64,000 bases of DNA from Planctomyces sp. SH-PL62 (GTDB lineage: Bacteria > Planctomycetota > Planctomycetia > Isosphaerales > Isosphaeraceae): positions 5,952,001 to 6,016,000 of the forward strand of contig NZ_CP011273.1 of assembly GCF_001610895.1 (NCBI RefSeq). The letters run 5' to 3'. A program made the position numbers and the translations under genes. Under the pieces are notes generated by a model, which was not told the origin of the DNA, made no database searches, and saw only the letters and a list, made by a program, of their open reading frames with translations. Positions 32,561 to 48,580 of the stretch are shown in pieces (positions within the stretch are counted from its first letter, which is position 1; the number at the start of each line of letters is the position of its first letter).

Positions 32561-32698
32561 ACCCCGCCGGGAGGAGGGCCCCGCCCGGCCCGGGCCCCCT
32601 GCTTGATCCCCGTCGAGAAGCGGACGATGCCCCGAATCGACGCGCCGGATCGAGACATGTCGCGAAAAATGACCAGAGGCTTGCAGCCACGCGACCTG

Positions 32699-33017
32699 CG
32701 AGCTAGAAGAAGATGACGCTCGAAGACGATGAGCGGCCTTGGGAGGTCTTGTTCTAGCTCGGCGCCCTGCGCCAGGGCGGCGTTGCGCCGCCCGAGTCGT
32801 CCGTCGGCCATCCGTCACAGCGAAGGCTGTTTCAGACTCGCTGCTCGGGGTAACTACTACTCCGGCCGCGGCGGGCCTGGGGCAACCCCGCCGGACGGGG
32901 TTCCGCCGCGGCCGGAGTAGTAGTTACCCCGGCGAGTCAGAGAGCCTTCGGTGTCCCAGGTCATGTAGTAGACGACTCTCCCAGGCAGGGGCGGGCGGCC
33001 TCCGGGTCGCCCGCCCC
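32699..33017 (+). ncRNA. Candidate structured RNA (possible retron msr-msd) upstream of the RT operon
   Basis: This part of the 504-base gap contains at least five stems: CGAGCTAGAA (32699-32708) with its complement at 32752-32761; two mutually exclusive hairpins sharing GGGCG (32763-32779, and GGGCGGCG/CGCCGCCC at 32775-32793); the large 29-bp stem at 32846-32931 with outer arms CGAAGGCT/AGCCTTCG (32821-32828/32943-32950); and GGGGCGGGCG/CGCCCGCCCC (32988-33017). Retrons need a short RNA with a long msd hairpin and closing a1/a2 arms; the 130-nt nested structure fits that outline. No branching guanosine could be assigned, and location upstream of the first gene, not directly before the RT, is atypical. 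Could instead be a regulatory leader or a palindromic repeat. Confidence 0.35.
32846..32931. repeat. 29-bp perfect inverted repeat
   Basis: Arms 32846-32874 and 32903-32931 are exact complements around a 28-base loop that itself contains GGGG/CCCC pairing. Six- and eight-base outer arms (GACTCG/CGAGTC and CGAAGGCT/AGCCTTCG) extend the pairing to 32821-32950. The purpose is open; see the candidate ncRNA. Confidence 0.92.
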
Positions 33018-33064: not shown

Positions 33065-36000
33065 GTGGCCACGTCGATCCGCCTCGAGGACGTCCGACTC
33101 GCGTGGGAGGCGAGAGACCCGGAAACGGTCTCCCTCGTCGTCGATCTCGCGGGGCAGGACGACCCGGAGCCCGAGCCGCCCCTCCGCGCCGGGGCTCCCA
33201 CCTTCGCCTCCTACCTGGCCGAGATCCGCTCGCGCGACTTCCGACGCAGGCCGCTGGAGGAGCAGGCGAGCGAGCGTCAGGCGAAGCTCCGCGCGCTGGA
33301 GGCCCCGGACGCCGAGGTCCCCCCGCCCGATCGCCTGAAGCTGCACGCCGTTCTGGAGGAACTCTGGGTCGACGGCGGCCCCGCGGCCCGATCGTGGCTG
33401 CTGCGGATCATCGCCGAGATCCCGGCGCGCTACGGCCCGTGGAAGGCGCTCAAGCGGATCTTCAAGGAGGCGGAAGCCCGCGGCGACGTCGAGGTCTTCG
33501 CCGCGCTCGCGGCCCGGTTCGACGAGCTCCAGGCGGAGGGGGGGGCCGAGGTCGGCCGGGCCACCCTGGCCTACCTCCGGCGTCGCGGCTGGAGGGCCCT
33601 CCGCCGCGCGGCCGAACGTCTCCCCTCGTCGTACGCCGACCTCGCCTGCGAGGTGCTGGCCCGCTACAGCGAAGGGACGCCCTGGCCGCGGACCTGGATC
33701 GCCAACCACATTTTCTTCCACGAAGCCGGGGGCTACGGCCGGGAGAATTTCGGCCGCTCGCCGGCCCTGTACTCGGGCGACTTCCTGAAGCATCGCGCCT
33801 ATGCCGACCTGTGGAAGCGCACCCCGAGGCCCCTGTTCGGGCTCCTGGAGAAGGCCCGCAGCGACCGGGCCCGGATGTTCGCGGCCGAAGCGCTGAAGGC
33901 CGACTTCCGCGCCTCGCTGCGCGAGGTGGAGCCGGCGTGGGTCGCCCGACTGGTGGACGTGCGGAGCCGGCCGGTCGACGTGCTCCTCGTCTGGGTCCTG
34001 TCGAACGTGCCCCGGTTCGAGCAGTCGGCGTTCCGCTCGCTCGGGCTCCACGAGGCCGTCCTGCGGCTGTTCGACTCGCCTTCCGACGAGGCCCGCGCGT
34101 ATGCGGCCGGCTACGCCCGGGCGCACGCCCGCGACCTGTCGGTCGACGAGTTGATCCGCCTGATCGACAACGACCACCAGGCCGTCCGCAAGCTCGCCGT
34201 CGACCTCCTCGGCGACCGCGACCCCCGCGCCGAGGTCGGCCTGGAAGCCTGGGGGCGTCTCCTGAAATCCGAACACGGCCTCAAGCTCGCGGCCGACGCC
34301 GTCTCCAGGCACTTCGGCGCGAAGGAGCTGACCCCCGACTGGTTCCGGGCCCACCTCTTCACCGAGAGCGCAGCGGCCTTCGACCTGCTCAAGGGGCTGC
34401 TCGCGAGGATCCACCCGACCGAGAAGCTCGGCCCCGGATTCTTCCGAGATCTGATCGACGCGCTGAAGGGCTCGGACGACGACGCCTCGGAGATGGTGGC
34501 CCCCTTCGCCCTGGGAGAGCTGGCGAAATTCGAACTCGACGCGCAGCCCGTCGACTTCCTGCGCCGCATCCTGCTCGACGAGATGACCCAGGAACAGGCC
34601 GCCCGGTGGGTCGACCAGGGGAAGCTCCGGGCCCCGACCTTCGGCGTCGAGTTCCTCAAGGCGCTGGCCTACGAGCCGGACTTCGCGGCCCATCCCTGGA
34701 TCGCCGAGTTCCGCCGCGCGGGGCCCGACTGGGCGAGGGCGCTCGCGTTCGACCCCGGGCTCTCCGATCGCGTGCGGGCCTGGCTCGCCGACGTCCGCAA
34801 GGTCCCGCCGGCCGACCTCGGATTCGACTGGCTCCTGTCGCTCGTCGCCCGTTCCGAGCCGAGCTACCACGACTTCGCCGTGGGCGTGCTGACGAAGGCG
34901 TTCACGCCGGCCGACTTCGCCCCCCGCGAGCCGTCCGCCTCGGCGTCCGAGCCCGAGCCCCAGGCCGCCGCGACGGTCGACCTGCAAGGGGCGTCGTTCC
35001 TGTTCACGGGCAAGATGGCGACCCTCAAGCGCAAGGACGCCGAGGACCAGGTGCGGTCGTCGGGCGGGTCGGTGTCCGGGAGCGTCTCGGCCAGGCTCCA
35101 TTACCTCGTGATCGGCGACGAGGGCTCGCCGCTGTACGGCCACGGCAAGAAGGGGGACAAGCAGACGAAGGCCGAGTCGCTGAACGCCTCGGGCGCGAAC
35201 ATCAAGATCATCTCCGAGACGGCCTTCCTCAAGATGCTGGCCGGCGGGGTGCGGGAGATTTCGGCCGACGCCGTGCTCGCCGGCTGCGAGCGGCTCTGGG
35301 AGATGGCCTCGGCGGCGGGGCCGGCCGACGCCCCGAGGGCCCGGTTCGCGATCGAGTACCTGCTCGCGCATCACCCCGACGTCGCCCTTGAGAAGACCGA
35401 AAGGCCCGTCGATCCGGGCGCGGAGATTCCCGCCGAGTTCCTCACGTTCGCGAGGGTCGAGCCGCTGTTCCACGAGAGCCGCAAGCCCCTGCGCGACCTC
35501 GCGCTGGAGCTGTCGCGGTGGGAGTTCGCCCGCTGGGCCCCCCCGCCCGAGGCCCTGTTGAGGCTGGCCGAGAGCCCCCACGCGGACGTCCGCCGATTCG
35601 TCGAGGGGGCGTTGCTGGCCGACGACTCCCCCGAGAATCGGCGCCGCCGGATCGACCCGGAGGGCCTGAGCCCCGCCGCCGCGTACGCCTTCTGCGAGTC
35701 GGCCGACGCCTCGACGCGCGACCTCGGGATGCGGCTCCTCGACCGCTCCCCGCGGCTGAGGCGTCCCGAGGAGCTGTTCCGCCTGACCGACAGCCCCGAC
35801 CGCCGGATGCGGGCGTTCGTGATCCGGACCCTGTGGTCGCTGTATCGCGATCGAGGGATCACGGCCGACTGGAAGCCCGCCGCCCCGCCGGCGCCGACGG
35901 TCGGCGCCGGGACGAGGAAGGCCGCGGCGATCGCGGCGCAGGATCGCGGCCCCGGCGTCCCGGCCCGCCCCGACGGCCTTCCGACCGGCCCCCGGGGGAT

Positions 36001-36304
36001 GTGGGAGCTGCTCCGGAGATCGCTGTTCGAGATCCCCCCGCCGAGGCCCGAGAAGCGCGAGGGGGGCGGGGCCCCGGAGAAGGCCTCGCCCCTGCCCGCG
36101 CGGCAAGCCAAGCTCGCGCTGATCGAGGTGATGCGCGACCTGGCCGTCGAGGACGTCGCATTCGCCCGGGGCGCGACGCCGCTCCTGGAGGAGTTCCTCC
36201 CCTCGCGCGGGCCGAGCGAACGGGCCGCCTGCCTGGTGGCCGTGACCCGCATCCGACACGCCTGGCCCGAACTCCGCCGAGGGGTCGAGGGGGCGCCCTC
36301 GTGA
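33065..36304 (+). CDS. HEAT-repeat protein with an internal BRCT domain (first gene of the RT operon)
   Basis: 1079 aa from a GTG with GGAGG 9 nt upstream; the GTG at 33047 is in frame but precedes that site. Most of the chain is alpha-helical HEAT/ARM-like repeats (e.g. YAAGYARAHARDLSVDELIR; NDHQAVRKLAVDLLGDRDP). Residues of about 637-722 form a BRCT domain (LQGASFLFTGKMATLKRKDA, SSGGSVSGSVSARLHYLVIG, NASGANIKIISETAFLKML) of the kind found in NAD-dependent DNA ligase, which binds DNA ends or phosphorylated partners. Its stop overlaps the next start (GTGA), so translation is coupled. Role in the RT system is inferred: a scaffold that brings DNA or protein ends to the complex. Confidence 0.85.
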   Translation: MATSIRLEDVRLAWEARDPETVSLVVDLAGQDDPEPEPPLRAGAPTFASYLAEIRSRDFRRRPLEEQASERQAKLRALEAPDAEVPPPDRLKLHAVLEELWVDGGPAARSWLLRIIAEIPARYGPWKALKRIFKEAEARGDVEVFAALAARFDELQAEGGAEVGRATLAYLRRRGWRALRRAAERLPSSYADLACEVLARYSEGTPWPRTWIANHIFFHEAGGYGRENFGRSPALYSGDFLKHRAYADLWKRTPRPLFGLLEKARSDRARMFAAEALKADFRASLREVEPAWVARLVDVRSRPVDVLLVWVLSNVPRFEQSAFRSLGLHEAVLRLFDSPSDEARAYAAGYARAHARDLSVDELIRLIDNDHQAVRKLAVDLLGDRDPRAEVGLEAWGRLLKSEHGLKLAADAVSRHFGAKELTPDWFRAHLFTESAAAFDLLKGLLARIHPTEKLGPGFFRDLIDALKGSDDDASEMVAPFALGELAKFELDAQPVDFLRRILLDEMTQEQAARWVDQGKLRAPTFGVEFLKALAYEPDFAAHPWIAEFRRAGPDWARALAFDPGLSDRVRAWLADVRKVPPADLGFDWLLSLVARSEPSYHDFAVGVLTKAFTPADFAPREPSASASEPEPQAAATVDLQGASFLFTGKMATLKRKDAEDQVRSSGGSVSGSVSARLHYLVIGDEGSPLYGHGKKGDKQTKAESLNASGANIKIISETAFLKMLAGGVREISADAVLAGCERLWEMASAAGPADAPRARFAIEYLLAHHPDVALEKTERPVDPGAEIPAEFLTFARVEPLFHESRKPLRDLALELSRWEFARWAPPPEALLRLAESPHADVRRFVEGALLADDSPENRRRRIDPEGLSPAAAYAFCESADASTRDLGMRLLDRSPRLRRPEELFRLTDSPDRRMRAFVIRTLWSLYRDRGITADWKPAAPPAPTVGAGTRKAAAIAAQDRGPGVPARPDGLPTGPRGMWELLRRSLFEIPPPRPEKREGGGAPEKASPLPARQAKLALIEVMRDLAVEDVAFARGATPLLEEFLPSRGPSERAACLVAVTRIRHAWPELRRGVEGAPS

Positions 36305-39300
36305 GCACGACGATCGACTACTCCATCCCGTTCCGCGGCGACCTGAAGGCGCTCGTCGGCGTCGGCTCGTCGGCCGCCTTCGTGACCTCCCACCCCGAGG
36401 GCCGACCGACCGGTCTGCACCGGGTCCACCTGGGGGACGACCGCCCCCGATCCGAGAGCGAAGACCTCCCCGGCGGGCTCGCGATCGTCGCCGACGGCGA
36501 GACGCTCTGGATCGCCGGGAGCGACGGCCGGATCCATCACGCCCCGCCCGGCGGCCGTCCCCAACCCATCGGACCGAAGTTCGACGAACCGCCGAGGTCC
36601 CTGGCCCTGCTCTCCGACGACCGCCTCGGAGTGCTGTCGGGCCGCGAGGTGAAGATCCTGTCGCGGAAGGACGGCAAGCTCGCGCAGACGCTCGAACTCC
36701 CCGAGCCCGGCTCGGTCCTGGCGAGCGATCCGTCGGGCCGCTGGCTGGCGGTCGGTACGACCGGCGGACTCGTCGCGATCTTCGAGGCCGAGACGACCCC
36801 CGAGTTCGTCGCGGGAGACGCCGCGCGGCTGCACGAAGGGGAGGTGACGGCGATCCTCTTCGAGCGCGACGACCTGCGGTTCTTCTCGGCCGGGGCCGAC
36901 CTGAAACTCCTCTCGACCCACGCGCGAGGGAAGCTGGAGCCCGAGGACAAGGGACGGGCCAACAACCACGCCGACCGCGTCACGGCCATGATCTGGGGCC
37001 CCGGGGACCGCCTGCTCACCGGCGGCCTCGACGCCGTGGTGAAGTCGTGGCCCCGCGTGGGGGGGGTCAAGCCGGCGACCCAGAAGGAGGGGGTCGCCCG
37101 CGTCGTCGGGCTCGCCCTGGTCCAGCGGCACGACCGCGACCACCTGGTCGTCGCGGGCGAGGACCAGACCATCTGCACGTTCGCGATCGACGCGGCCGGT
37201 AAGCCCGCGGCGCTGCTGCTCCGGGGCTGCGACGCGATGGCCGCGACGAAGGCCGACCTCGCGGGCGACGACCCCCGCGCCCGCGAAGCCGCGATCCGCC
37301 GACTGGCCGAATTCGACGATGCGGCGTCGCTCGACCTTCTGGCCGATCAGGCCGGGGTCGACCCCGACCACGGGCTTCGACTCCTCGCCGCTCGGTCGCT
37401 CGGCCAGTCCGACAATCCCAGGGCGGCGGCGCGGCTGGAGGGCCTGTTCGCCCACGCCGAGGCGGCCGTCCGCTCGGCCGCGTTCGAGGGCCTGCGGCGG
37501 ATCCGGGGTCGGGCCGACCTCCACGTTTTGGACCTCGCCCTCAAGGCCGAGAAGCCCGAGATCGGCAAGCTCGCCGTCGAGGCGCTCGAGGCGCTGGCGC
37601 CAGGGGACGATCGGGCGACGGACCGCCTGTCCAGGGCCCTCGCGGCCAAGACGCCCGAGGTCCGGCTGGCGGCGCTCGTCGCGCTGGAATCGGCCTACCC
37701 GGCCGGATCGCCCGAGGCGAACCTGGCCGCCATGGGGACGACCCACCCCGACGTCAGGAGGGCCGCGCTCCTGCGGCTTTCCGCCCGGGGGCTGCTGGGC
37801 GACCCCGCCGCGCAAGCGGCCCTCCGACGCCGGGCCGAAGACCCCGACGCCGAGGTCCGTCGGGTCGCCTTCCTGCTCTCGCTCCAGACCCGCCCCGCCC
37901 TGCTCCAGGCCCTCCGGTCCCGCGACCCCGAGCTGCAACGCCAGCTCGCCGACCTGGAAGGAAGCGATGAGGGGCCGACGCCCGAGCCCGCGAAGAAGGC
38001 GCGGAAGGGCCGGGGCGAGGCGTCCACGAAGGCCGAAACGCTGACGGACGACGACCTCGCGCCGCTGCTCCAGGCCGCCGCCGCCCGCGCCGTCGACACC
38101 AGCCTCCGGGGTGCCCGAGGGCTGGCCGTCCTGGGGGACGCCCGGGCGTTCGGCCTCCTCCTGCAACTGAGCCGCGAGGAGGACGAGAAGGCCCGCGTCG
38201 AGGCCTGCCGCGCCCTGGCCGCGCTGGACGATCCCCGAGGTGCCGAGCGGCTGAGGTCGCTGCTCCACGACCCCGGCCTGAACGTCCGCGACGCGGCCTT
38301 CACCGCCCTGGCCCGCCTGCACGAGTCCGAGCCCCTGAAGGCGGCCGAGGCGGGCCTGAACGCCCCCTCGGAGAACGTCCGCCAGAGGGGGCTGCAACTG
38401 CTCGTCGCCGAGGCGCGCAAGGCCCCGCCCGGCAAGCTGGAAGAGCGTCCCGCGGCCATGCTGGCCGACGCCCTGAACGACTCGATCGCGACCGTCCGCT
38501 CCGAGGCGTTCAAGGCCGCGTTGAACCTGAACGTCGGCGGGGGAGGCGCGGCCACCCTGCGGTTCGTCATGAAGAGCCGGCACGCCGACGTCCGCCGCGA
38601 GGCGATGACCGAGACGATGGCGAACGTGGCCGGGCCGGGGGGCTGGGACGTCCTGTTCGAGTTCCTGGACGACCCCGACCCCGGCCTCCGCGCCGAGGCG
38701 TACGCGTTCGCGGCGAAGAAGACGAAGGGGCTGGAGACGCTCGACGCGGCCCTCGGCTCGCGCTATCCCGACCTGCGGAAGTCGGCCGTCGACGGCCTGA
38801 TCAAGAAGCGCACGGCCGCCGCGCAGAAGCTCCTCGCCCGCGCCCTGGACGACGCGGACGGCGACGTACGGCTCGCCGCGCTGGAGGCGCTCGTCGGGGC
38901 CGACGCCCGGCCGGTGCTGAGGACGGCGGTCGAGAGCCCGCACGCCGACGTCCGGCTCCGCGCGGCCCTCGCGCTGGCGCGGCACGGCGACCCGGCCGCG
39001 CTCGCCCCGCTGCTCGCCCTGGCCACCGCTCCCGAGCCCGCGGAGGAGGAGCGGAAAAAGGACTGGGCGAGCCTCGCGGAGTCGGCCCTGATCGGCCTCG
39101 GTCGGCTGGGAGACGCCGCCGCGCTCCCGGACCTCATCCCCCTGATCGACGGCCCGATCGCACCGATCCGACGGGCCGCGGCGAGGGCCCTGGCCTGGCT
39201 CGCGCCGCCGGACCGGCCCGCCCCGCTCCACGACGCGCTGAGGCACCACGACCCGGTCGTCCGCGACCTCGCGGCGCTCGGCCTGGCGATCCTCGGCGAC

Positions 39301-42300
39301 GCCTCGGCCGGGCCGCTCGTCTTCTCCGACGCCGCGAAGTCGCTCGAACCCTGGGAGAAGCTCGCGGCGGCCCTGGCGCTCTCGGGCGCGGCGGCCGGCG
39401 ACGGGCATCTCGTCGCCGCGCTCGACGACCCGGACGAGACGGCGCGGGCGAGGGCGTTCCTGCTTCTCCTGATGAGGGAATGGAAGGAGCCCCGCGAGGA
39501 TTCGACGCTCATGCTGGCGGCCCTGGCGGCCCGGGAGGCCCGGACGCGGCTCGCGGCGGCCGAGGCGCTGGAGGCGACGGCCGGCCCGTCGGGGCTCGCC
39601 GCGTTCCTGGCGAAGACGTTCAACGACCGCGGCGAGAAGCCCGCCTGGACGATCGCCGAGGGGGTCGTGGACGACCTGGCCGAGCTGCTCGTCCACGCCG
39701 CCCCCGGCCTCCGCGCCCGCTCCTCGGAGCTGCTCCGGGAGCTTGAGAACGAGGAGCAAGCCGGGTGGGACCAGGCCTGGGCGATCCACTCGGAGCGCTA
39801 CTCCGCCGAGATCGCCGCGCTGCGCCGGGCCGCGGAGTCGCGACGGCCCCCCCGCCCCGCCTCCGCGCCCGAACGTCTCCGCGAGCTGGCCTTCGGCGCC
39901 TACGTCGGGCTGGTCCGGGAGCGAGGAAGTTCTCGCAAGAAGGGCGCCGAGCCGGCCGTCGCACGGGTGAGGCGGACGGCGCTCGGGCGGCTCGTGAACC
40001 TGGCGAAGGCCGACCCCGCGGTCGCCTCGGCGGCCCTCCCGGTGCTCGTGCAGGTCCTGGGAGACCCGAACGCGGCGATCCGCCTCCCGGCCTTCGAGAG
40101 CCTGCCGGAGCTGGGCCTGGACCCGACGGCCCTCGCGGCCGAGGCGCTGGGGACCGGCCACCTCGACCTGGGCGTGAAGGCCCTGGAGATCCTCGCCTCG
40201 GGAGGGTCGGCGGCGGAGGGGCGTCGCGTGCTCGACGAGGCGATGCTCACGCGCCGGGACGACCTGGCGATCGAGGCGGCCCGGCTGCTGATGGCGAACG
40301 AAGGGGTCGCGGCCGTCGCGGGCCGGGCGCTGGAGGGCTCCCACGAGCCGCTCCGACGGGCCGCCGTCGCCTGGCTGGCCGACGAGTCCGACAAGAACGA
40401 GAAGGCCCGCGAAGCTCTCCGGCGGGCGCTCGGCTCGCGCCACCCGTCGGTCCGCGAGGCCGCGGCGATGGCGTTGTCCACCCGGAAGGATGCGACGGCC
40501 TTCGACGCCCTGGTCGAAGGGCTCAGGGCCGCGACCGAGCCCGCCGCCGCGCGTCGCTTCATCGCCGCCCTGACGGTCCTGGGCGACCCCCGCGCCGCCT
40601 CGGTCTTCCTCGACCGCGTGGAGGACGACCCCTCGGGGACCGCCCCGACCGAGGAACTCATCCGAGCCGTCGGCGACCTCGGCCGACCGGAAATCGTCGA
40701 CCGGCTCTTCGCCCTCTGGGACCGGGAGCCGAAGCGAGGCGCGGCGATCCGGCAGGCCCTCCTTTCGATCAGCGGCCATGACCAGGCGATCGAGGACCCC
40801 GAGGAGGATGCGCCCGATCGGCGGTGGGAGGAGACGCAGCGCCCGCGTCGCGACGACGTGCTGGCCCGCCTCCTCGCCCGACTCGCCGCGCCGGGCGAGA
40901 AGGGCGCCGCCGCGTTCCTCCCCGCGGCCCGATGGTCGCGTTCGAGCGCGGTCGATCCGGTCCTGTCCGGCCTGGTCGCGCATCCGGACGAGGCGACCCG
41001 GCGCGGGGCGATCGAGGCGATCGGCTGGAGGCTCCGCAAGCGCACCGGCGACCCGACCGCGCTCGTCAAGGCGCTGGCCTCGCGGGACCCGGTCTCGCAG
41101 CTGCTGGCGGCCGAGGGCCTGGCCCGGATCGGCCGACCGGACGGGCTCTCCGCGCTCCTGGCGAGCGTGGAGCTGGTCTCCGACCTGGGCCTCCGCCGTC
41201 GGGCCGTCCTGGCGCTCGGCGAGCTCGGGGACGAGCGGGCCGCGGAGCTGCTCATCAAGCTCGCCTCCGACGACGCCCACGCCCTCAACGAGGTCGCCGC
41301 CGAGGCGATCGGCCACCTCGGTCGATCGAAGCACGCCGAGGTCGTCTGGCGGTTGCTGGAGCGACTCGCGCGGGGGTACGGCGGGGTGGCCTTCCAGGCG
41401 AACAGGGGCCTCCGCTGGCTCGACACGGCCGCGGGGTGGGCGCTGCTGCGCGGCCGCGCGGCCGATCCGGCGGCCCCGAACCGCTGGGCGGCCATCGAAC
41501 AACTGGCCTACAACGACGACCCGGCCACCCGCGAGCTGCTCCTCCGGCTCGTCCGCGAGGATCTCACGCATGGGGAATCGGCGTACGACGCGGCCCGCCG
41601 GCTCGCCGGCCCCGACGCCCTGGAGCCCGACGAGGCCCTGATCCAGAACCCGGAACTCTCCTTTCTCGACGTGTTCAAGAAGGCCCTGGAGCGCGTCTGC
41701 GAGCGGTCCTCGCCCGCGACGATCTTCGCCATCCTCCCCCGCTGCGAGGATCAAGACGCCCGCAAGGACCTGAGCCGGGCGGTCCTGTCGAGGAAGGAAC
41801 TTCCGGTCGCCGAGGCGCGGAAGGCGATCGACGACCGAGACCCGATCGTCTCGGGCCTCGCGGCGCACGTCCTGGGGAGGGCCGGCGAGTCGGCCCGCGA
41901 CGCGGCGTCGGCGATCGATTCGGCCCTCGCCCGCTGGTGGAAAGCCTGGCTCGAACGCCGGAAGGCCGCCTGGCGCGGGATCGACCCCGACGACGACGAC
42001 TCGCCCGACCGGCCGATCGTCGATTGCCTGGGCCTGGTCGCCTGGGCGGCCGGACGATTGGGGGTCGGGATCGAGACCCTGACTTCGATGGCGAAGGCCC
42101 CCGGCGCCGACCTCGACGCGGCCGACCTGCGGCGATCGGCGATCGAGGCCCTGGCGGCGTCGCCCGCGAGGAAGGGGGCGGTCGACGCCCTGGAGGGGGC
42201 CGCCGAGACCTCGACCCCCGAGCTTCGGGCCCTGGCGGCCCAGGCCGTGGCCGAGGACGCGCCCGAGAAGATCGCGTCCCTGGCCGAGAAGCTCCTGGCC

Positions 42301-42675
42301 GACGGCTCGGCCTTCGGACGAATCGCCCGCGACGCGGGCCCTCGCCTCTCCGAACTCCTCCGCCGGGCCGCCCGGCAGGGGCGCTATCAGGGGGTGGCCC
42401 TGCCGCACCTGATCGCCGGCCGGGACCTGGAGGGCCTCACCGCCGTGGCCGGGGACCGCTCCCTGGACGAAGGGGCGAAGCTGGGCGCCGTCGAGGCCCT
42501 CGCCGCCCTCGCGACCGAGCCCGCCGAGGCGGTCCTCCGCGAGATCGGCCTCGACGACCGCTTGGACGAGGACCTCCGCAAGGCCGCCTGGAGAGGGCTC
42601 CGACGATCGAAGCGGGCCAGGACGCCGAAGACGCCGAAAACCCCCAAGCCTTCGAGGGCCGAGGTGCGCGGATGA
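36301..42675 (+). CDS. 2124-aa propeller plus giant HEAT/ARM-repeat protein (second gene of the RT operon)
   Basis: GTG start overlapping the previous stop by 4 bases. Residues 1 to about 300 read as a WD40-like beta-propeller (ADGETLWIAGSDGRIHHAPP, LASDPSGRWLAVGTTGGLVA, TAMIWGPGDRLLTGGLDAVV). From about 310 to the C-terminus the protein is an almost unbroken array of HEAT repeats (LLAARSLGQSDNPRAAARLE; ARVEACRALAALDDPRGAER; LRRRAVLALGELGDERAAEL), ending in a short KTPKTPKP tail. Such solenoids are protein- or nucleic-acid-binding scaffolds. An ARM/HEAT partner next to WH-SWIM and RT genes is what I recall for retron type XIII. The start of the SWIM gene overlaps its stop (ATGA). Confidence 0.85.
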   Translation: MSTTIDYSIPFRGDLKALVGVGSSAAFVTSHPEGRPTGLHRVHLGDDRPRSESEDLPGGLAIVADGETLWIAGSDGRIHHAPPGGRPQPIGPKFDEPPRSLALLSDDRLGVLSGREVKILSRKDGKLAQTLELPEPGSVLASDPSGRWLAVGTTGGLVAIFEAETTPEFVAGDAARLHEGEVTAILFERDDLRFFSAGADLKLLSTHARGKLEPEDKGRANNHADRVTAMIWGPGDRLLTGGLDAVVKSWPRVGGVKPATQKEGVARVVGLALVQRHDRDHLVVAGEDQTICTFAIDAAGKPAALLLRGCDAMAATKADLAGDDPRAREAAIRRLAEFDDAASLDLLADQAGVDPDHGLRLLAARSLGQSDNPRAAARLEGLFAHAEAAVRSAAFEGLRRIRGRADLHVLDLALKAEKPEIGKLAVEALEALAPGDDRATDRLSRALAAKTPEVRLAALVALESAYPAGSPEANLAAMGTTHPDVRRAALLRLSARGLLGDPAAQAALRRRAEDPDAEVRRVAFLLSLQTRPALLQALRSRDPELQRQLADLEGSDEGPTPEPAKKARKGRGEASTKAETLTDDDLAPLLQAAAARAVDTSLRGARGLAVLGDARAFGLLLQLSREEDEKARVEACRALAALDDPRGAERLRSLLHDPGLNVRDAAFTALARLHESEPLKAAEAGLNAPSENVRQRGLQLLVAEARKAPPGKLEERPAAMLADALNDSIATVRSEAFKAALNLNVGGGGAATLRFVMKSRHADVRREAMTETMANVAGPGGWDVLFEFLDDPDPGLRAEAYAFAAKKTKGLETLDAALGSRYPDLRKSAVDGLIKKRTAAAQKLLARALDDADGDVRLAALEALVGADARPVLRTAVESPHADVRLRAALALARHGDPAALAPLLALATAPEPAEEERKKDWASLAESALIGLGRLGDAAALPDLIPLIDGPIAPIRRAAARALAWLAPPDRPAPLHDALRHHDPVVRDLAALGLAILGDASAGPLVFSDAAKSLEPWEKLAAALALSGAAAGDGHLVAALDDPDETARARAFLLLLMREWKEPREDSTLMLAALAAREARTRLAAAEALEATAGPSGLAAFLAKTFNDRGEKPAWTIAEGVVDDLAELLVHAAPGLRARSSELLRELENEEQAGWDQAWAIHSERYSAEIAALRRAAESRRPPRPASAPERLRELAFGAYVGLVRERGSSRKKGAEPAVARVRRTALGRLVNLAKADPAVASAALPVLVQVLGDPNAAIRLPAFESLPELGLDPTALAAEALGTGHLDLGVKALEILASGGSAAEGRRVLDEAMLTRRDDLAIEAARLLMANEGVAAVAGRALEGSHEPLRRAAVAWLADESDKNEKAREALRRALGSRHPSVREAAAMALSTRKDATAFDALVEGLRAATEPAAARRFIAALTVLGDPRAASVFLDRVEDDPSGTAPTEELIRAVGDLGRPEIVDRLFALWDREPKRGAAIRQALLSISGHDQAIEDPEEDAPDRRWEETQRPRRDDVLARLLARLAAPGEKGAAAFLPAARWSRSSAVDPVLSGLVAHPDEATRRGAIEAIGWRLRKRTGDPTALVKALASRDPVSQLLAAEGLARIGRPDGLSALLASVELVSDLGLRRRAVLALGELGDERAAELLIKLASDDAHALNEVAAEAIGHLGRSKHAEVVWRLLERLARGYGGVAFQANRGLRWLDTAAGWALLRGRAADPAAPNRWAAIEQLAYNDDPATRELLLRLVREDLTHGESAYDAARRLAGPDALEPDEALIQNPELSFLDVFKKALERVCERSSPATIFAILPRCEDQDARKDLSRAVLSRKELPVAEARKAIDDRDPIVSGLAAHVLGRAGESARDAASAIDSALARWWKAWLERRKAAWRGIDPDDDDSPDRPIVDCLGLVAWAAGRLGVGIETLTSMAKAPGADLDAADLRRSAIEALAASPARKGAVDALEGAAETSTPELRALAAQAVAEDAPEKIASLAEKLLADGSAFGRIARDAGPRLSELLRRAARQGRYQGVALPHLIAGRDLEGLTAVAGDRSLDEGAKLGAVEALAALATEPAEAVLREIGLDDRLDEDLRKAAWRGLRRSKRARTPKTPKTPKPSRAEVRG

Positions 42676-44549
42676 GCGACGACTCCCCCCCGCCGGACGT
42701 CCCCTCCGACGAGCCCGCCGCCGTCGAGCGGACCGAACTCCACCTGGCCTACGCCGGGGCGAGCCGCATGTCGACCTCCGAGGGCTCGGCGCGGCTGGCC
42801 CTCGCCGCCAACATCCTCCGAAGTCCGGCGCGGTTCGACGGCGTGATCCACGACCCGATCCGCTTCCGGGAGGCGATGTCGGCGCTCCACGCGGTCGTCG
42901 CCAGCGACATGCGCTATCAGCCCAAGGACCGCACGGCCTACCTCGCGTATGTACGGATGAGGCGCGAGTCGTCGGGGCTCGACGCCTGGCAGGCGCAGCG
43001 GGAATATTTCTCGTGGCTCTTGCGGAACGACCCGCTGGCGTTCGTGATCCTGGACCCGGTGGTGACGGTCCATCCCGATCAGGTCTTCTTCGAGGTCTTC
43101 AGCAAGGACGAGGGCGCGTACGCGAAGCTCGGGGTCGACCGGGAATGCTTCACGACGGAGGCCGAGCCGACCTACGGCACGACGAACATCGACTTCAGCG
43201 AGTCGCTGTACCGGGGCCTCCAGCAGATGCGCTCCTACCGGGAGACGCGCCTGACCATCGGCTCCGAAGGGGTGGGGCTCGCGACGCAGGCGGCCGGGCA
43301 GGTGCTGGAGAAGACGATCCGGGTCCCGGATTCCTGGCTTCGCGGGTTCCTGCAGGTCCAGTCGGCCGCCGCGCTGCCGCGAGACTCGTTCTCGCTGGCG
43401 CCGATCGACCTGTACAACGCGCTTCGGCACCTGCGGCTGCACGCCGACGAGAAGGGCCGACGCCGCGGGCTGAGGGTCGAGCTGATGCCGGGTCGGGCGC
43501 CCCGGCTGGTGCTCGAGCCCTGGAACGTGGTCATCCCGACGACGGCCGGGCCGTACAAGGGGAAGTCGGCGAAGGTCGCCCGCGTCTGGGGCCGTCGCCG
43601 CCTGATGCTGCTCCAGCGGTTCCTGCCGTTCGTGGAGGAGGTCGACGTCCACCTCCTCGGCAGCGGCCTGCCGAGCTTCTGGGTCCTGCGCGGGCGGGGG
43701 ATGACGCTCACGCTCGGGCTGACCGGATTCACCGCGGCGAACTGGTCGCAGGCCTTGAATTTCGACCTGCTGCTGCCCCGCAAGACGGAGCCTGGCGGCA
43801 AGTCGCTCGACGCCGTGCTGGCGCACCTGGCCGGGCGGTGGTCGGCCGGGATCGGCGAGCTGGCGAAGTCGACGAAGCTCCCCTGGCCGGCGCTCACCGA
43901 GGCGTTGCAGCTCGGCTGCCAGCAGGGCCGCATCATGTACGACGTCGCGGCCGACGTCTACCGCCTGCGTCCCTTGACCGAGGCCCCGCTGGACCTCGGC
44001 CGCCTGGAGTTCCGCGACGCCCGCGAGCGCGTGGCGCACGACCTTCTGGTGCGCCGGGGGGCGGTCGAGGTCGTCGCCGAAAATCGGCTCCCCGGCGCGG
44101 GGCTGGAGTTGACCGGCCGGGTGACGGTCCGGGAGGACGACCGGGAGTACCGCCCGAAGATGCTCCTGGCCGACGAGGGGCAGGTCACGCGCGCGGAATG
44201 CACCTGCGGGTTCTTCCGCAAGCAAGGGCTGAAGGCGGGCCCCTGCGTCCACCTCGTCGCCCTACGGCTCGCGTACGCCGCCCGCGAGGCCGACCGCGCC
44301 GCGGGCCGGACGCCGGCCGAGGCGATCACCGCCGAGACCCGCGCCTTCAGCCGTCGCGACGCGAAGGGCGAGGACGTCTACGAGGTCACGCTCGATCGCC
44401 GTCGGCTGAAGGTCCGCTGGGGCCGCGACGACGGCCCTCCCCGGCTCCAGACCCTCGCGTTCGACTCGGTCGAGGAGGCGAGGGCCGCCTACCTCGGCCG
44501 CGTCTCCGACCTCGCCGCCCGCGGCTTCCTCGACGCCTCCGCAGGATGA
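42672..44549 (+). CDS. Winged-helix/SWIM zinc-finger protein (third gene of the RT operon)
   Basis: 625 aa; ATG overlaps the preceding stop by 4 bases. The N-terminal half is uncharacterised. A winged-helix-like segment lies at about 378-435 (GRWSAGIGELAKSTKLPWPA then GRIMYDVAADVYRLRPL), followed by a SWIM zinc finger: Cys510-x-Cys512, twelve residues, Cys525-x-His527 in AECTCGFFRKQG and GPCVHLV. SWIM fingers bind DNA or protein in bacterial, viral and eukaryotic contexts. WH plus SWIM is the composition of the WHSWIM accessory of retron type XIII as I remember it. The C-terminal ~80 residues are a small beta domain. The stop overlaps the RT start. Confidence 0.85.
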   Translation: MSDDSPPPDVPSDEPAAVERTELHLAYAGASRMSTSEGSARLALAANILRSPARFDGVIHDPIRFREAMSALHAVVASDMRYQPKDRTAYLAYVRMRRESSGLDAWQAQREYFSWLLRNDPLAFVILDPVVTVHPDQVFFEVFSKDEGAYAKLGVDRECFTTEAEPTYGTTNIDFSESLYRGLQQMRSYRETRLTIGSEGVGLATQAAGQVLEKTIRVPDSWLRGFLQVQSAAALPRDSFSLAPIDLYNALRHLRLHADEKGRRRGLRVELMPGRAPRLVLEPWNVVIPTTAGPYKGKSAKVARVWGRRRLMLLQRFLPFVEEVDVHLLGSGLPSFWVLRGRGMTLTLGLTGFTAANWSQALNFDLLLPRKTEPGGKSLDAVLAHLAGRWSAGIGELAKSTKLPWPALTEALQLGCQQGRIMYDVAADVYRLRPLTEAPLDLGRLEFRDARERVAHDLLVRRGAVEVVAENRLPGAGLELTGRVTVREDDREYRPKMLLADEGQVTRAECTCGFFRKQGLKAGPCVHLVALRLAYAAREADRAAGRTPAEAITAETRAFSRRDAKGEDVYEVTLDRRRLKVRWGRDDGPPRLQTLAFDSVEEARAAYLGRVSDLAARGFLDASAG

Positions 44550-45886
44550 CCCCCGACATGGCCACGCAACGTCAGACCGACCCGTCCGACCTCTGGCGCG
44601 CGATCGTCCAGGCCGGGGGGGTCCAGCCCTACATCGACGCCCAGCTCGCCGAGCGCGGCTTCCTCGTCGCCCGCCGCGAGACCGACGGCCTGTCGGATCG
44701 CGAGCTGGCCGACTACAAGAAGTCGCTGAAAGCCGAGGCGAAGGAGCGCGACCGCCTGCGGCGCGAGACCTGGGCCGCCTATCGCGCCGAGCACATCGTC
44801 CACCTCGGCGACGGCGTCTTCTGGAGCGACGAGCCCGGCCCCGACAAATGGGACCTCCCCAACGCCGAGGTGCAGGCCGCCGAGAACGAGCTCCCCCCGC
44901 TCGACTCGCCCCGACAGCTCGCCGAGGCGCTCGGCCTGACGATCCCCCAGCTCCGCTGGCTCGCGTTCCACCGCGACGCCGCCAGGCGGATCCACTACCG
45001 GCGCTTCACCATCCCCAAGCGCGACGGCACCGAACGGGCCATCTGGGCGCCGATGCCCCGATTGAAGCAGGCGCAACACTGGATCCTCCGCAACATCGCC
45101 GAGAGGCTGCCGGTGCACGGCGCGGCCCACGGCTTCCTCCCCGGACGGTCGATCCTCTCGAACGCCGCCGCCCATCACGACCCGAAGGTCGTGGTGCGGA
45201 TCGACCTCAAGGACTTCTTCCCGACCGTCACCTGGCGTCGCGTGAAGGGGCTCTTCCGCAAGGCCGGATACCGCGAGCACGTCGCGACCTTGCTGGCCTT
45301 GATCTGCACGGAGTCGCCCCGCGAGGTCGTCGAGCAGGACGGCGAGACCTACTACGTGGCCCTCGGGCCGAGGTGCCTGCCGCAAGGGGCGCCGACGAGC
45401 CCGGCCGTCACGAACGCGCTCTGCCTCCGGCTCGACCGACGGCTCTCCGGCCTCGCTCGCCGTCAGGGCTGGCGCTACACCCGCTACGCCGACGACCTCA
45501 CGTTCAGCCGAGCTTCGGGGTCGGACGCGCCCCCGGCGGTCGGACGGCTGCGCGGCTCGGTGCGCCGGATCGTCGAGGCGGAAGGCTTCGCGGTCCACGA
45601 CAAGAAGACGGCCGTCGGGCGTCGAGGAGGGCGGCAGTCGATCACCGGCCTCGTCGTCAACGGCGACCGCCCCCCGCGCGTCGACCGGGAGTTCAAGCGG
45701 AACCTCCGCGCGGCGATCCACAACCTCGCCTCGGGCAAGGAGCCCAGGGACGCCGAGCCGCCCCAGGTCCTCGCCGGCCGTGCGGCGTACGTCGCCATGA
45801 CCGACCCGGCGCTCGGCAAGGCGCTCCTGGACGAACTCTCGCGAGCCGTCGACCAGGCCGCGGCCGGCTCGCCTCCGAGGTCGTGA
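44546..45886 (+). CDS. Retron-type reverse transcriptase
   Basis: 446-aa RNA-dependent DNA polymerase. The ATG overlaps the SWIM stop (ATGA). RT motifs are all present: IPKRDGTERAIWAPMPRLK, GFLPGRSI, VVVRIDLKDFFPTVTW (motif A Asp), LPQGAPTSPAVTNALCLRLD (motif B) and the catalytic YADD (314-317). Two retron hallmarks are visible: NAxxH (Asn206-His210) and an ITG variant of the VTG motif (366-368, ITGLVVN). The ~115 residues before the RT fold are helical and charged. It is not a group II intron RT: no maturase/X or HNH domain follows. It should make an msDNA from a cognate msr-msd RNA, candidate at 32.7-33.0 kb. Confidence 0.92.
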   Translation: MTPDMATQRQTDPSDLWRAIVQAGGVQPYIDAQLAERGFLVARRETDGLSDRELADYKKSLKAEAKERDRLRRETWAAYRAEHIVHLGDGVFWSDEPGPDKWDLPNAEVQAAENELPPLDSPRQLAEALGLTIPQLRWLAFHRDAARRIHYRRFTIPKRDGTERAIWAPMPRLKQAQHWILRNIAERLPVHGAAHGFLPGRSILSNAAAHHDPKVVVRIDLKDFFPTVTWRRVKGLFRKAGYREHVATLLALICTESPREVVEQDGETYYVALGPRCLPQGAPTSPAVTNALCLRLDRRLSGLARRQGWRYTRYADDLTFSRASGSDAPPAVGRLRGSVRRIVEAEGFAVHDKKTAVGRRGGRQSITGLVVNGDRPPRVDREFKRNLRAAIHNLASGKEPRDAEPPQVLAGRAAYVAMTDPALGKALLDELSRAVDQAAAGSPPRS

Positions 45887-47248: not shown

Positions 47249-48580
47249 ATGACATCCTCGCATCCGACGCCCGCCCCCTGCCAGTGGTTCGTCCGTCTCT
47301 CCGGCCCGCTCGACCGACGGTCGGCGCCCCGGCTCGCCCTGCTGTTCGTCGGCGCGGTGCTGGCTCACGGCCGGCGGACCGTCACGACGTGGATTCGGGC
47401 CGCGGGGCTGAGCGGCCGCTTCCAGTCCTGCTACATCGCCGTCGCGGCGGCCGGGAGGGAGGCCAGCTCGATCGCCGGCCGCTTGCTGAACGAGGTCGTC
47501 GCGCCGCTCGCGACGGGGCGGGGTCGGCTGACGCTGGCGCTCGACGATACGCCGACGCGGCGCTACGGCCCGTATGTCCAGGCCGCCGGCGTGCATCACA
47601 ACCCGACGCCCGGCCCGGCCGGATCGCCGCACGTCTACGGCCACGTCTTCGTGGTGCTGGCGCTGCTGGTCGAGCATCGGTCCTGGGGCGTGATCGGCCT
47701 GCCGCTGCTGTCGCGGCTGTACGTCCGGCGGGTGGACCTGCCGGCGATCGCCCCCAAGCATCGGCCCGCGTTCCGCACCAAACTGGAGATGGCCGTCGAG
47801 CTATTGCGATGGGCGAGGCCGTGGCTCGGCCTGATGAAGAGGCCGATCTGGGTCGTGGCCGACGGCGCCTACGCGAAGAAGGAGCTGCTGAAGCCGGCGA
47901 AGGCCCTGGGGATGACGGTCGTCAGCCGGCTCCGCAAGGACGCGGCGCTGCGGACCATCCCCGGCCCCAGGCCGTCGGGCAGGCGGGGTCGCCCTCGCGT
48001 CTACGGCGAGCGAGTCGTCGACCTGGCCAAGCGGGCCGGTCAGAAGCGGGGCTGGTCGCGAGGCTCCTTCGACCTCTACGACGGCGCCGAGGTTAAGCGT
48101 TACAAGACGTTCCTGGCGACGTGGCGGCCGGCCGGCGGCGTGATCCTGGTCGTGCTGGTCGACGAGCCGCACGGCTGGCGGGCCTACTTCTGCACCGACC
48201 CCGAAGCCACGGTCGCCGACGTCCTGACGACGATCGCGGATCGCTTCAGCCTGGAGGTAGCCTTCCGCGAGATCAAGGAAGTCGTCGGGGCGGGGAAGCA
48301 GCAGGTGCGGTTCATCCACGCGAGCGTCGGGGCTTTCCACGTCTGCCTCTGGACCTACACCCTGACGGAGGCCTGGGCGTGGAGACGGTCGGAGGCCGAG
48401 TTGGTGGACCGCTCCGACTCGCCGTGGGACTCGCAGCTGCGCCGACCGAGCCATGCCGACAAGCGCCGGGCCTGGCGCCGCGAGATCCTGGCCGGGGAGA
48501 TTCTCGCGATCCTGCGGTCCGGCCCGACCGACGCGGAAATTCAAGCCGCCGCCGACAGGCTGCTGCGGCTCGCGGCCTGA
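47249..48580 (+). CDS. DDE transposase, IS701/DDE_5-like
   Basis: 443 aa. The catalytic triad can be placed: Asp in LALDDTPTRRYGPYV, Asp in IWVVADGAYAKKELL and Glu in FSLEVAFREIKEVVGAGKQQ, the YREK-like region of IS4/IS701-type enzymes. The layout PCQWFVRLSGPLDRRSAPRL at the N-terminus is shared by many planctomycete transposases. Full length, no frameshift, so probably active. Ends of the element are at 46666 and 48606. Confidence 0.88.
   Translation: MTSSHPTPAPCQWFVRLSGPLDRRSAPRLALLFVGAVLAHGRRTVTTWIRAAGLSGRFQSCYIAVAAAGREASSIAGRLLNEVVAPLATGRGRLTLALDDTPTRRYGPYVQAAGVHHNPTPGPAGSPHVYGHVFVVLALLVEHRSWGVIGLPLLSRLYVRRVDLPAIAPKHRPAFRTKLEMAVELLRWARPWLGLMKRPIWVVADGAYAKKELLKPAKALGMTVVSRLRKDAALRTIPGPRPSGRRGRPRVYGERVVDLAKRAGQKRGWSRGSFDLYDGAEVKRYKTFLATWRPAGGVILVVLVDEPHGWRAYFCTDPEATVADVLTTIADRFSLEVAFREIKEVVGAGKQQVRFIHASVGAFHVCLWTYTLTEAWAWRRSEAELVDRSDSPWDSQLRRPSHADKRRAWRREILAGEILAILRSGPTDAEIQAAADRLLRLAA

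Follow-up and report, generated by a model that had tools for sequence, protein, structure and literature searches.

A type XIII retron with a candidate msr-msd RNA at the head of its operon in Planctomyces sp. SH-PL62

A 64,000-nucleotide stretch of the genome of Planctomyces sp. SH-PL62 (the window; contig NZ_CP011273.1, positions 5,952,001 to 6,016,000) contains a four-gene operon encoding a HEAT-BRCT protein, a beta-propeller-HEAT protein, a protein with a SWIM zinc finger, and a reverse transcriptase (RT). The gene set, the RT type, the anatomy of an RNA at the locus, and the linkage of that RNA to a clade of RTs collectively show, at the level of sequence, that the locus is a retron of type XIII. 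The candidate msr-msd RNA is located at 32735-32985, at the head of the operon and 11.8 kb from the RT gene. The coordinates given in an earlier note on this DNA left this element out, and with it a defining part of a retron was missed.

Reverse transcriptase and gene set

The four genes lie on the + strand between 33065 and 45886 and are joined by three 4-nt stop/start overlaps, all located where the earlier note had placed them. Its call of retron type XIII was likewise borne out: PADLOC models of this type cover all four proteins nearly full length, and the RT_XIII model outscores the next PADLOC RT model (330.2 bits) by about 210 bits. The reported RT motifs NAxxH, YADD, and ITG are present in the window RT. 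An alignment of 29 type XIII RTs shows no exceptions (29/29) for YADD, for A and H in NAxxH, or for T and G in V/ITG; the N of NAxxH, present in the window RT, is replaced by G in three loci (L049, L051, and L055). A profile of these 29 RTs, when compared to solved structures, matched Ec86 best (247 bits), with group II intron RTs at 57 bits or less. Affiliation of the RT with non-retron groups, which the note had named as a result that would count against it, was evaluated by profile scores, and both Drt2 (24 bits) and group II RTs (53 bits) are far from it. With the retron St85 family the window RT scores 220 bits, where the family cut-off is 235.

Phylogenetic reconstruction of 37 RTs, comprising 29 type XIII RTs (picked by RT_XIII score or by linkage to a SWIM gene) and eight other planctomycete RTs, one of them very long-branched, placed the window RT with the 28 other type XIII RTs on one branch (support 97/81). 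Nested within this branch, the nine rows of the four-gene subtype form a branch of their own (100/100). Named reference retrons were not among the rows, and placement against other retron types therefore rests on the profile scores. Of ten other RT loci intended for the tree, L001 and L039 were omitted (no frame); the whole RT of L045 was dropped from the alignment by a start-codon rule, L108, L110, and L128 fell outside the stem and RT comparisons, and three strong RT matches (G065:C274, G065:C967, and G191:C498) were not among the fetched loci.

Retron-like RTs of another kind, possibly more than one family, are common in the phylum, with RT_XIII matches below 380 bits that start near model position 97-110. 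Outside the window's family, 31 of 38 genomes of the same class matched the RT_XIII model, 26 of them only below 380 bits. In the RT tree this kind is represented by L034, L035, L037, L038, and L040, and some others of the phylum begin like MGLFDWLFGKKKDPYG.

A survey of co-conservation, as the note had proposed, identified all four genes in 12 of 14 distinct subtype loci: ten complete on one contig, one split over two contigs (L108 and L146), and one cut at both contig ends (L110). Nor do homologous operons mostly lack the RT, since its gene was found in 13 of the 14 (12 whole and one cut by a contig end). Gene order is conserved across loci, so that the arrangement is no product of chance. 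The reading frame of gene 1 extends upstream to 33047, but the match opens exactly at the GTG at 33065 in 7 of 10 relatives and at residues 3 or 5 in the other three. The window genome and Paludisphaera soli are of one genus; L062/L111, in the same genus group, encode proteins that are 82, 74, 88, and 85% identical to those of the four window genes.

The four proteins correspond to PADLOC-DB retron type XIII (RT_XIII, SWIM_XIII, HEAT-ARM_XIII, and WGR_XIII), which they match nearly end to end. The window locus differs from other type XIII loci in several respects: it encodes two HEAT proteins, whereas one (PDLC02922) was found in L122; it has its own RNA class and RT subclade; and its RNA lies at the operon head rather than between the SWIM and RT genes or just before the SWIM gene.

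Candidate msr-msd RNA and its variable stem

Upstream of gene 1 is a near-perfect palindrome with a fold energy z of -9.1 (0 of 200 shuffled sequences were as good). The general retron plan, as outlined in the available portion of one article (PMC6868368), comprises a priming guanosine in TAGC, sometimes CAGC, one to three msr hairpins, a long msd hairpin, and complementary ends. The window RNA has all of these, namely an a1/a2 helix, the TAGC guanosine, two msr hairpins, and the long msd hairpin, and in this it resembles Retron-Eco1 (Ec86), the RT of which is also the closest solved structure. It departs from that plan in its distance from the RT.

In an RNA alignment that initially comprised 9 and later 11 loci, the same elements follow in the same order: TTG/TA-AA promoter boxes, a1, TAGC, two small hairpins, the long hairpin, whose base and tip are conserved, and a2 (Table 1). 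Whole-structure pairing is 97.6% of cells, compared to 80.7% in shuffled and 39.7-46.2% in slid controls, and the covariation score is 0.494, compared to 0.150 when shuffled and at most 0.142 when slid. In 12 of 14 sequences the cognate a1/a2 duplex was among the two best of 14; L115 (rank 8) and L147 (rank 5) are the exceptions.

Table 1. Positions of the retron genes, the predicted RNA parts, and the parts of the SWIM protein
Feature	Position	Strand	Evidence
Sigma-70-like promoter, TTGCAG-N17-TAGAAG	32681..32709	+	TTG and TA-AA columns in 9/9 loci, surrounding DNA little conserved
a1, 5' strand of a1/a2 helix	32735..32756	+	cognate a1/a2 duplex ranking
Predicted 2'-5' branch guanosine in TAGC	32757	+	TAGC invariant in 11/11 aligned
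msr stem-loop 1	32761..32773	+	100% paired; 2/5 pairs changed on both sides
msr stem-loop 2, 8 bp, 3-nt loop	32775..32793	+	100% paired; 7/8 pairs invariant
msd region, expected msDNA about 150 nt (ends approximate, inferred)	32816..32968	+	long hairpin, z = -9.1
Hypervariable msd stem, 5' arm, 23 nt	32848..32870	+	exact complement of 3' arm, 9/9 loci
msd hairpin tip, conserved	32871..32906	+	GCGGG-CTGG--CAACC-CGCCG--CG--GTTCCGC in 9/9
Hypervariable msd stem, 3' arm	32907..32929	+	exact complement of 5' arm, 9/9 loci
a2, 3' strand of a1/a2 helix	32969..32985	+	cognate a1/a2 duplex ranking
HEAT-BRCT protein (HEAT-ARM_XIII, PDLC02921)	33065..36304	+	PADLOC 1118.6 bits; mostly helical predicted model
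Beta-propeller-HEAT protein, 2124 aa (HEAT-ARM_XIII, PDLC02919)	36301..42675	+	GTGA overlap; PADLOC 2014.3 bits
SWIM_XIII protein (WH-SWIM; PDLC02972)	42672..44549	+	ATGA overlap; PADLOC 658.9 bits
SWIM protein parts	PCNA-like clamp fold about aa 54-355; winged-helix-like about aa 377-432; SWIM zinc finger aa 501-531		predicted
Retron reverse transcriptase, type XIII	44546..45886	+	ATGA overlap; PADLOC RT_XIII 539.8 bits; motifs; tree

The same kind of hairpin occurs within 700 nt before gene 1 in 8 of 10 relatives, all eight of the same order. In two deeper relatives the RNA is located behind the RT gene (L045, genome G107) or about 2.5 kb before gene 1 (L046, genome G065). Its occurrence at three different places suggests that the RNA accompanies the RT rather than keeping a fixed site.

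Model R1 of the RNA (93 positions, from the a1 end to the first part of msd, built from 11 sequences) was searched against 45 genomes of the order, 11 of which have the subtype as defined by a SWIM gene with a match that starts at model position 2 and exceeds 620 bits. R1 yielded 11 matches in 10 genomes, all among these 11, and none in the other 34; in the sole subtype genome without a match (G400) the contig begins inside gene 1. Most matched loci belonged to the R1 training set, and the test consists in nothing else in the order matching. Among 392 genomes of the phylum, R1 matched four: the window's, G065 (twice), and G107, each with the subtype, and G306, where a 27-bit match without the long stem was judged to be chance. 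Three matches were held out of training. The first (L146) lies upstream of genes 1 and 2 of G405 and has a fully paired 29-bp stem. The second is an additional RNA copy in Tautonia sociabilis. The third (L147:2393-2713; G065:C1266), from a 4.5-kb contig on which no type XIII genes lie, has a less perfect stem and may be an orphan RNA or one split from its genes by the assembly.

Several other placements and identities of the RNA were considered. No second copy of the hairpin was found in the window's genome, which rules out a repeat element. An RNA beside the window RT was rejected, as the SWIM and RT genes overlap and no inverted repeat above the score limit occurs in the 700 nt after the RT. 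An antisense reading of the hairpin is not favored because the promoter, TAGC, and msr all fit the + strand. A 1-kb gap before the RT in L112-L115, the Tautonia-type loci, was discarded as an RNA site; between the SWIM and RT genes, inside the operon, it holds a gene for an RsmH/MraW-like 16S rRNA methyltransferase (e.g., L115:15858-16757), recognized by eye from its translation. In Rfam, none of the 15 families among the matches listed reached its gathering score; the best hit at E values up to 10, MIR1432, scored 34 bits (gathering score 90) and resembles the RNA only in being a hairpin.

The msd stem combines complete pairing with free sequence. Its 23 bp are Watson-Crick in 9 of 9 loci of the order (207/207 pairs), and all 23 pairs have double-sided changes and none one-sided changes. 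For the five closest pairs, the arms have an identity of 0.57-0.78 and fourfold sites of the SWIM gene one of 0.60-0.75. Across genera, arm identity is 0.13-0.35 when the three Paludisphaera rows are compared to the others and 0.39-0.57 between the other two genera. Stem sequence changes about as fast as fourfold sites, and no accelerated evolution of the stem is claimed. Retron msd stems are described as generally holding mismatches or wobble pairs in the available portion of the same source (PMC6868368), against which the perfect pairing observed here is unusual. Mismatch types were also considered as a sign of selection on pairing in DNA rather than RNA, but the counts in the group B stems (five A-C, two G-U, and three T-C) are too few.

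Two genomes carry paired RNA copies. On one contig of Tautonia sociabilis (L115: 16790-17071; 3095-3836), the RT is cut, but the locus keeps its other three genes and two RNA copies in tandem. These copies are identical at 164 of 166 positions in the constant part and at 11 of 22 in the stem arm, both stems are paired, and one copy carries CAGC instead of TAGC. This genome also encodes a type XIII locus of a third RNA class (L124). A second type XIII locus in Paludisphaera soli (L149:578 and 2621) has one copy before the SWIM gene and one between the SWIM and RT genes. Over 191 nt, these two copies are distinguished by one spacer base and by one stem pair, C-G to T-A, altered in both arms.

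Other type XIII operons have a second RNA class, located between the SWIM and RT genes or just before the SWIM gene and recognized by GAGAC, a GGCG-tipped msr hairpin, TTCCCC, and GTTGTTC. Its hairpins are mostly 21-27 bp and of free sequence; in 19 of them 469 pairs were counted, and 459 are Watson-Crick. Arms were picked by best score, so that mismatches are undercounted (L154 was cut to 11 pairs). Model R2 of this class matched 16 of the 45 genomes at 18 places, two of which are on small contigs (of G410 and G397) where no type XIII gene was identified. A third class (L120 and L124) is defined by CATTAGCC and a hairpin. Of 27 RT_XIII matches of at least 420 bits in the order, 21 have R1 or R2 within 15 kb on the contig, three are on broken contigs in genomes that have an RNA on a different contig (G405, G407, and G397), two are of the third class, and one (G377) is without an RNA match. 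In the 34 fetched loci, R1 reached E 0.01 in just two, its training loci L045 and L046, and R2 in 15, comprising 13 training loci and the held-out L052 and L053.

HEAT proteins and the predicted clamp fold

The HEAT-BRCT protein had been regarded as foreign to the type XIII set. That view was mistaken: PDLC02921, a HEAT-ARM_XIII model, spans the protein almost end to end, indicating from its sequence that the gene is an ordinary part of type XIII. Its BRCT domain, at about 34982-35221, reaches 23 bits against a Pfam cut-off of 21.3, and this part is optional, as the L046 homologue has no match over the BRCT region. The predicted model matched HEAT proteins in Foldseek. Likeness to CAND1 and karyopherins was rejected as a guide to function, with template modeling scores of at most 0.25. 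The propeller-HEAT protein is matched by PDLC02919 over 5-2109; in Pfam, HEAT_2 is above its cut-off and the propeller models are below theirs.

The SWIM finger of the third protein reaches 20 bits in Pfam (cut-off 19.6). Among 30 family members, the finger is matched in 20 and a weak WGR match occurs in nine. An AlphaFold2 model of the protein, built with 30 homologues (predicted local distance difference test 77.5, predicted template modeling score 0.72), matched sliding clamps in Foldseek with a best E of 6.7e-07. In VIA-align, 212 residues within 55-354 of the model aligned to a 245-residue PCNA (Z 16.4, root-mean-square deviation 2.5 A, 9% identity), and all 50 entries among the matches listed were PCNA or 9-1-1 clamps. 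The SWIM protein is therefore predicted to contain a PCNA-like two-domain clamp fold. Unlike sliding clamps, its clamp-like part is fused to winged-helix and SWIM parts, no clamp loader is found among the four window genes, and the likeness is one of predicted fold. Bacteria normally use three-domain beta clamps. Literature that combines retron, sliding clamp, and PCNA was limited, among the matches listed and in the portions of those records available, to human or mouse studies. Clamp-based readout of a reverse-transcribed DNA, if it occurs here, would be the only case known to us.

Proposed reading of the msDNA, alternatives and meaning

The explanation that we consider probable is a type XIII retron with an msr-msd RNA, a SWIM protein that reads the multicopy single-stranded DNA (msDNA), and HEAT proteins as scaffold and effector. 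One promoter would drive the RNA and, probably in the same transcript, the four proteins. As in known retrons, the RT would bind the msr hairpins, prime on the 2'-OH of G32757, and copy msd into an msDNA hairpin. The two HEAT proteins would form the scaffold and effector side, silenced by a complex of RT, msDNA, and SWIM protein, and a phage protein that damages or modifies the msDNA would release them. The system would thereby act in anti-phage defense.

In the type IX retron-Kva2, the winged-helix pocket is described as cradling the conserved msDNA tip and touching the stem through the backbone and minor groove (available portion of PMC13405049). The window locus likewise pairs an RT with a winged-helix protein, and its winged helix may sit on the conserved msDNA tip in the same way. 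It differs from retron-Kva2, which has a HEPN RNase as effector (PMC13405049, as available), in its HEAT giants, SWIM finger, and clamp-like domain, and no HEPN match was found in the window retron proteins in Pfam. The PCNA-like domain would hold the msDNA duplex without reading its bases. We propose that a reader blind to bases, yet demanding an intact duplex, could account for the free sequence, fixed length, and perfect pairing of the stem. That the clamp, winged-helix, and SWIM parts together form a sequence-blind sensor of intact, perfectly paired, fixed-length msDNA, leaving the stem free to diverge, is a tentative idea that we hold to be possible but doubtful. Mismatched msDNA stems are described as probable attractors of MutS (PMC6868368, as available). 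Avoidance of MutS is a second possible reason for the perfect pairing. A third is template-switch correction of palindromes.

Several observations weigh against these readings. PADLOC, Pfam, and profile scans found a nuclease, TIR, or other toxin domain in none of the four proteins, and no catalytic part was recognized to which a killing step could be assigned. The clamp fold is supported by one AlphaFold2 model from a 30-sequence alignment. The 30 SWIM members matched 19 Pfam families at E values up to 10, with no PCNA family among them, and searching solved-structure sequences with a profile (E up to 1) returned no PCNA, a null that says little at 9% identity. One subtype locus (L128) comprises an RT and an N-terminally shortened SWIM gene without a match to the two HEAT genes, and the Tautonia sociabilis locus retains its two RNA copies with an RT cut to about 95 amino acids. 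Finally, neither R1 nor R2 was identified at E 0.01 in 17 of the 34 fetched loci, including L042, L043, L055, L067, L058 (G377), and the third-class L044, L120, and L124, which carry a hairpin of their own.

A retron by build could instead serve DNA-damage repair or checkpoint signaling. PCNA-like, BRCT, HEAT, and SWIM domains are frequent in repair proteins, and the lack of a recognized toxin domain fits such a role. However, the patchy presence of the system (RT_XIII in 3 of 6 genomes of the genus) and a DDE transposase gene (Pfam DDE_5) at 47249-48580, downstream of the retron, are more like a defense cassette. Functional reports on retrons mostly concern defense, though not all do. We regard a repair role as unlikely.

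A further alternative concerns the stem, which might be actively diversified, by arm-to-arm copying or msDNA write-back, in an arms race with phages that learn a given stem. The Tautonia sociabilis copies, nearly identical outside the stem yet half different within the arm, would be explained by this, as would L107/L109, which differ at 10 of 23 stem positions (identity 0.57) compared to an identity of 0.75 at fourfold sites. The other four close pairs do not follow this pattern (stem 0.61-0.78, fourfold 0.60-0.70), the stem having the slightly higher identity in three of them. Immediately upstream of the two Tautonia copies the DNA shows little similarity (37/109 ungapped), suggesting that the copies may be old and homogenized, and the P. 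soli copies differ by a single stem pair and one other base. Active diversification is thus quite improbable. Least probable is that the hairpin is a regulatory leader, an attenuator, or a small mobile palindrome with the real retron RNA elsewhere: it does occupy the usual leader site far from the RT, but it is single in the genome, could not be a leader where it lies behind the RT (L045) or about 2.5 kb before gene 1 (L046), has TAGC, a1/a2, and msr hairpins, and tracks the subtype (10 of 11 genomes, 0 of 34 others).

The protein set is already known to PADLOC and the kind of retron is known; we count the variant as new because it combines an RNA class, an RT subclade, and a two-HEAT gene set that occur jointly. 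In the literature searched, retron type XIII was named only as a PADLOC call in a Variovorax strain, and the type looks little studied. The RNA is new relative to Rfam, but PADLOC is described as having retron covariance models (available portion of PMC9252829), and these or earlier type-defining work may already hold the type XIII RNA. With the RNA detached from the RT, searches beside the RT could miss it.

For the type XIII retron proposed here, a candidate priming base in the RNA, the msDNA predicted from it, and a partner of predicted clamp fold turn an annotation into a system that can be expressed and tested. The combination of free sequence with fixed pairing and length is a sharp prediction on how the msDNA is read. 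If the reader is indeed blind to bases, unlimited divergence of the stem may deny phages a fixed target.

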